From: Pseudobdellovibrionaceae bacterium
GTDB lineage: Bacteria; Bdellovibrionota; Bdellovibrionia; Bdellovibrionales; UBA1609
Assembly (NCBI GenBank): GCA_015163855.1
Contig: JAAOIK010000049.1
Location: forward strand, 1 to 42,451
Length of the DNA stretch: 42,451 nt
Reading direction: 5' to 3'
In this document: in pieces, positions 29,041 through 29,146 of the stretch
Numbering within the stretch: the stretch's first letter is position 1
How the letters are laid out: each line of letters opens with the position of its first letter
Notes under the pieces: generated by a model
The model's input: the letters and a program-made list of their open reading frames with translations, nothing else
Database searches by the model: none
Told to the model about the DNA's origin: nothing
Translations under genes and position numbers: made by a program

Positions 29041-29146
29041 TTTTTTACAGAGCCTATTTAAACCTCTGGCAAAAACCGTTCAGCCCCAAAAGGGACGCAG
29101 CAAAGTGCAGGCTTTTTCTAGAGGTTTAAATAGGCTTTGTAAAAAA
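29041..29146 (+). ncRNA. Long near-perfect hairpin upstream of ahcY (structured leader RNA or MITE-like element)
   Basis: Bases 29041-29069 pair with 29118-29146 in 29 consecutive pairs, of which only two are G-T. The core AGCCTATTTAAACCTC (29051-29066) is perfectly complementary to 29121-29136. The 48-nt internal region extends the stem through AAAAA/TTTTT and CC/GG pairs with bulges, then could form two small hairpins: CCC-aaaa-GGG (29083-29092) and GCA/TGC near 29097-29108. There is no T-run after either end, so it does not look like an intrinsic terminator. It lies between map and ahcY, 20 nt before the ahcY start. It does not fit the SAH riboswitch core I know. Function is unassigned. 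Confidence 0.6.

Follow-up and report, generated by a model that had tools for sequence, protein, structure and literature searches.

The window analysed here is a 42,451-nt stretch of DNA from a Pseudobdellovibrionaceae bacterium, and its most conspicuous hairpin lies in the gap between map, encoding methionine aminopeptidase, and ahcY, encoding S-adenosylhomocysteine hydrolase (Table 1). The hairpin begins 38 nt past the map stop codon and ends 20 nt ahead of the GTG start of ahcY. The transcript start of ahcY is predicted to fall at the base of the hairpin, based on the match of the promoter-like sequence to consensus. The closest named matches of map come mostly from Bdellovibrionales or related organisms. 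Upstream of map, positions 27750-28241 (+) encode a lysine-rich protein of 163 amino acids; it has a histone H1-like composition and VTKKKK units from a tandem repeat of 18 bases.

Table 1. Features of the map-ahcY region (window coordinates). The sister is the one other genome of the same genus.
Feature	Position	Strand	Remarks
map, methionine aminopeptidase, upstream neighbour	28247..29002	+	gene order same in sister
Promoter-like TTGCCA-17-TAATAT	29013..29041	+	consensus match only; layout same in sister
Palindromic element, whole hairpin, probable copy of a dispersed family	29041..29146	+	orientation that reads core GTTCAGCCC; fold, inverted-repeat search, hairpin census, core pattern
Left arm, locus-unique	29041..29077	+	outer nine bases TTTTTTACA kept in sister, contiguous with promoter region
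Apical core GTTCAGCCC-CAAAA-GGG-ACG-CAGCAAAGTGCA, portion common to other elements	29078..29109	+	
Right arm, inverted copy of left arm	29110..29146	+	89% complementary
Likely ribosome site AGGA	29156..29159	+	unpaired in fold of predicted leader
ahcY, S-adenosylhomocysteine hydrolase, GTG start	29167..30552	+	

The arms of the hairpin are 37 nt each and 89% complementary, and the outermost 28 pairs are unbroken, two of them being G-U. The 48-nt interior (29070-29117) could form small internal hairpins. The predicted fold has a free energy of -50.4 kcal/mol; 200 dinucleotide-shuffled sequences gave -22.5 ± 3.4 kcal/mol (z = -8.2), and none equaled it. Of all inverted repeats in the window, this one has the highest stem score (29). 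No terminator-like T-run follows the hairpin on either strand. A first-pass annotation made from the sequence had described a near-perfect stem of 29 bp with two G-T pairs, a 48-nt core with potential internal hairpins, a 20-nt distance to the GTG of ahcY, and the lack of a T-run; we reproduced the coordinates, the stem, the core, and the spacing, and likewise saw no T-run.

All 50 contigs (1.24 Mb) of the genome to which the window belongs were scanned for long hairpins. BLAST and pattern searches of this genome returned no second copy of the ahcY hairpin, only the hairpin itself and chance matches, and weak DNA matches in family genomes were set aside as they were not hairpins of the ahcY kind. 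The hairpin census, by contrast with BLAST, revealed about 16 outliers, nearly all of which have the same tip and arms that are unrelated to each other. Eighteen stems in the genome score 20 or more, against none in five shuffled genomes. DNA searches miss the copies because only the tip is shared and every locus has arms of its own. The search for further copies that the first-pass annotation had proposed was thus negative by BLAST and yielded some 16 to 18 elements by the census. Stems of the family are mostly 28-53 bp long, and the apical core is mostly 20-32 nt.

The shared apical core has the rough consensus G(A)YTCAGCCC-NNN-GGG-ATG. Among aligned copies, the commonest core reads GC-GACTCAGCCC-NNN-GGGATGCCTGA-GC. 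Core subtypes include GATTCAGCCC...TGTCGA and GTTCAGCCC-NNN-GGGATG, the latter in some copies with a short GCGAAGC stretch after it, and it is this latter subtype that the ahcY core resembles. A search of both strands (2.49 Mb) with the pattern G[AT][CT]?TCAGCCC-N2-6-GGG gave 11 matches, of which 10, ahcY included, are hairpin tips; the pattern was composed after the family had been seen, and this count is therefore descriptive rather than an independent test. A model built from three other copies (type B) scores the ahcY core at 21.7 bits, with an E value of 0.0018 for the window and 0.053 for the whole genome; the type A model, made from the commonest subtype, misses it. With a stem score of 29 and the core pattern at its tip, the ahcY hairpin is, judged from these sequence features, a divergent member of the family. 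The 3' end of contig G000:C17 (locus L142, 4260-4300) stops at CCAAAAAAGCG and looks like a half-element broken at the hairpin tip, and the assembly may lose further copies through breaks of this kind.

We examined where the copies lie and how widely the family occurs. Most copies are intergenic, many of them a few bases past stop codons, and their orientation is mixed. Neighboring genes, which we take from their translations to be recA, tuf, rpsB, polA, murC, pyrB, and lepB, are simple ORF calls, as are all genes outside the window. One copy lies inside menD in both species with the reading frame open; in comparisons with solved MenD structures the element region fell outside the aligned parts, so the insertion is deduced from the palindrome itself. 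Two further in-frame copies occur in valS of the sister, and the same site is empty in the window's genome. The sister has at least 17 elements (17 model matches); the sequence stretches of its genome that were retrieved make up about two-thirds of it. Some copies occupy the same locus in both species, and others are found in one only.

Across 144 genomes of the class, only stray weak model matches appeared outside these two; those in three genomes (about 1e-5) were not counted, as every perfect stem earns some score. The exact type A core was absent from the other genomes among 369 of the phylum and from viral contigs. Phages and plasmids gave no convincing match, and a viral, phage, or plasmid origin was rejected. 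An integron attC site was likewise set aside, as attC sites are conserved at their ends and the family here is conserved at the tip. Our search of the open-access literature found no such family described for Bdellovibrio.

The ahcY copy is one of those present in a single species. AhcY of the sister is 90% identical, the order of map and ahcY is the same, and the upstream region keeps a promoter-like TTGCAA-17-TAATATTTTTTACA; the leader beyond differs and is unstructured (z = +1.4), and the hairpin is absent. Since it is present here and absent in the sister, the ahcY copy, which lies at the predicted transcription start, would have been gained in the window's species or lost in the sister, as far as a comparison of two genomes of the genus indicates. 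Where the hairpin would be, the sister's leader (locus L012, about 1430-1490) has several short tandem repeats (AATAACACAGC).

To follow changes in the arms, we compared four palindromes shared by the two species: those in menD, in the orn-rpsB gap, on the 3' side of recA, and the coreless C34:3553. Synteny was shown for the first three, and C34:3553 was matched by its near-identical ends only. In total, 127 pairs are unchanged, 15 are changed on both sides, 2 are changed on one side, and 9 are broken, some of the latter due to alignment slips. C7:33326 and sister C9:1593 also share arms and were left out of this count because their synteny could not be demonstrated. The coreless element (G000:C34:3553-3619; G001, the sister, C9:8853-8919) is a palindrome of 32 bp closed by a 3-base loop, and its inner arm is changed on both sides.

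Across 26 elements, the arms contain 973 pairs, of which 904 are Watson-Crick. In the core orientation, G-T pairs (19) are no commoner than A-C pairs (15; P = 0.61), even though the stem-extension procedure favored G-T, and there is no strand bias. Selection on an RNA from one strand should favor G-T, and the lack of such an excess argues against it. The arm changes fit a DNA-level process in which one arm is the template for the other, rather than RNA selection. Arm-onto-arm copying has been described in other palindromes (PMC8794818, PMC6649704).

In a few elements, the outer arm matches local host DNA. In the left arm at ahcY, the outer nine bases continue the promoter region of the sister. 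The right arm of C43:3847 aligns with the empty sister site. At C10:59956 and at sister C9:19138, arm sequence is repeated exactly, over 16 and 15 bases, immediately outside the hairpin, and at the valS elements the host sequence TTTGAATCTGA..AAATTA is present in both orientations. Five elements have arm-like copies directly beside them; the flanks of the ahcY hairpin contain no extra arm copy. These sequence patterns suggest that the palindrome grows into local DNA. Counting against growth into local DNA, stretches of arm sequence recur in several sister copies that lie at different loci, and arms would therefore also travel. Maintenance of the arms by copying is likely, and their creation from target DNA is possible.

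In our view the ahcY hairpin likely belongs to a new family of long DNA palindromes, dispersed through the genome and specific to the genus. Each copy consists of a short shared core at the tip and two locus-unique, almost perfectly complementary arms. The arms would be kept complementary during replication, one serving as template for the other through template switching or fold-back copying, and perhaps be lengthened outward into flanking DNA by the same process; we infer this mechanism from the patterns in the arms. Any effect of the hairpin on ahcY is probably incidental. More tentatively, a mobile hairpin core that is little more than the tip might build long arms from the DNA of its landing site by inverted copying, each copy then being a unique, self-repairing palindrome invisible to ordinary repeat searches.

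It is possible, although we doubt it, that the elements are of an ordinary MITE or REP type, mobilized by a transposase whose gene lies elsewhere, and that their arms have drifted apart over time while both strands co-evolved. The partly common arms of several sister copies at different loci agree with such an origin, and the family is about as numerous, and as widely spread between genes, as REP or MITE families typically are. However, the copies have no common ends or terminal tag, and most arms are unrelated. We identified no transposase for the family and no clean target-site duplication; direct repeats of arm sequence lie beside some copies, with none at ahcY. The Y1 (RAYT) transposase is absent from the window's genome, and that of the sister sits among a different repeat. 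This separate repeat, TGAGGGTCAGGTACACCCC, occurs in many copies with palindromic arrangements on sister contigs C3, C19, C24, C26, C35, and C48, with the Y1 transposase gene among the C35 copies; it looks like a REP/RAYT system and was not seen in the window's genome. The first-pass annotation had offered a small MITE-like mobile palindrome as an alternative. This reading comes close: a scattered palindrome family with a shared tip does exist, but target-site duplications were not cleanly seen and no transposase was identified.

It is unlikely that the copies are scattered RNA elements selected for their structure, for example as sites for RNase III or 3'-end protection, with the ahcY copy acting as a 5'-terminal stem that stabilizes the mRNA. 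In favor of such elements, arm changes between species are paired, many copies sit a few bases after stop codons, and at ahcY the stem would be 5'-terminal with a free ribosome site. Against this, orientation relative to genes is mixed, G-T pairs are rare and no commoner than A-C, copies occur in frame within coding genes, and the ahcY copy is lost or absent in the sister.

That the hairpin is an ahcY riboswitch or other cis-regulatory leader RNA, sensing SAH, SAM, adenosine, or homocysteine, is highly improbable; the first-pass annotation had suggested an SAH- or SAM-sensing riboswitch from its position. The predicted transcript begins at the hairpin base, the ribosome site follows the hairpin, and the fold is strong. 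The position upstream of ahcY is shared with the SAH riboswitch (Rfam) and other ahcY leaders; unlike the SAH riboswitch, the hairpin matches no such model and is not conserved with ahcY. In addition to the sister, 28 further related ahcY upstream regions contain no comparable stem (best score ≤12, compared with 29 here), so the covarying versions that were to be looked for in related genomes did not appear and a new leader RNA of ahcY is not supported. The same core is moreover found beside unrelated genes. At curated thresholds, Rfam gave no match in the window or in the ahcY loci of 20 relatives, and no SAH or SAM riboswitch family appeared even at E values up to 10. Matches at E values up to 10 were mainly to plant miRNA models, dismissed because such models fit any long stem, together with a partial likeness to Glutamine-II. 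Positions 29078-29094 of the core resemble the start of the Glutamine-II aptamer (CGUUCA, a short stem, CGCAG). We rejected this candidate (14.3 bits against a curated threshold of 33; E = 0.06-0.2), as the model's 3' half is largely unmatched, and the likeness is probably due to chance. An intrinsic terminator of map, for which the location shortly past the map stop codon would speak, is just as improbable given the missing T-run on both strands and the conserved promoter-like sequence for ahcY that precedes the hairpin.

The family most resembles the Rickettsia palindromic elements (RPE), short palindromes located between genes and in frame within genes (PMC2229807). Both comprise palindromes of about 100-150 bp scattered in a small genome, intergenic and in frame, with no known transposase (PMC2229807). 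Dispersal between genes and in frame inside genes holds for the family as a whole; the ahcY copy itself is not in a gene. RPE families are recognized by sequence along the element, whereas here the tip alone is shared and the arms differ at each locus; RPE also come from unrelated bacteria, and the family is set apart from them by description. By analogy, the family would work like RPE, yet we do not file it as an RPE member because its arms are not conserved between copies.

REP and REPIN sequences with RAYT (PMC3733652, PMC3116915) are likewise dispersed extragenic palindromes, some intragenic, of moderate copy number. REP stems are 5-13 bp long with a terminal GTAG or CGTC tag (PMC3733652), whereas the stems here are about 28-53 bp and untagged, in a genome without the Y1 transposase. 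Coding palindromes in the mitochondria of Nematomorpha are likewise near-perfect inverted repeats peculiar to their locus, lying within genes and between them, and template switching is offered as their possible cause; in the portion of that source consulted, no shared core is described and the arms encode conserved host protein sequence (PMC6649704). In RNA-gene hairpins made by template switching, inverted copying creates or repairs arms and yields double changes without intermediates, as may be the case here; what is described there is a mutation mechanism and not a dispersed family with a shared core (PMC8794818).

Besides Rickettsia, this looks like another small-genome lineage whose protein genes take up palindromic elements in frame. 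Families with locus-specific arms and a shared tip escape similarity-based repeat finders. Compensatory changes in hairpins, usually read as a sign of functional RNA, can arise by copying of arms at the DNA level, and the shared, one-sided, and empty sites in the two species provide natural replicates for testing arm copying. The commonest core types, though not the ahcY core, contain GANTC (GACTC or GATTC), a motif also present in the Caulobacter CIR repeats (see the review PMC2229807).
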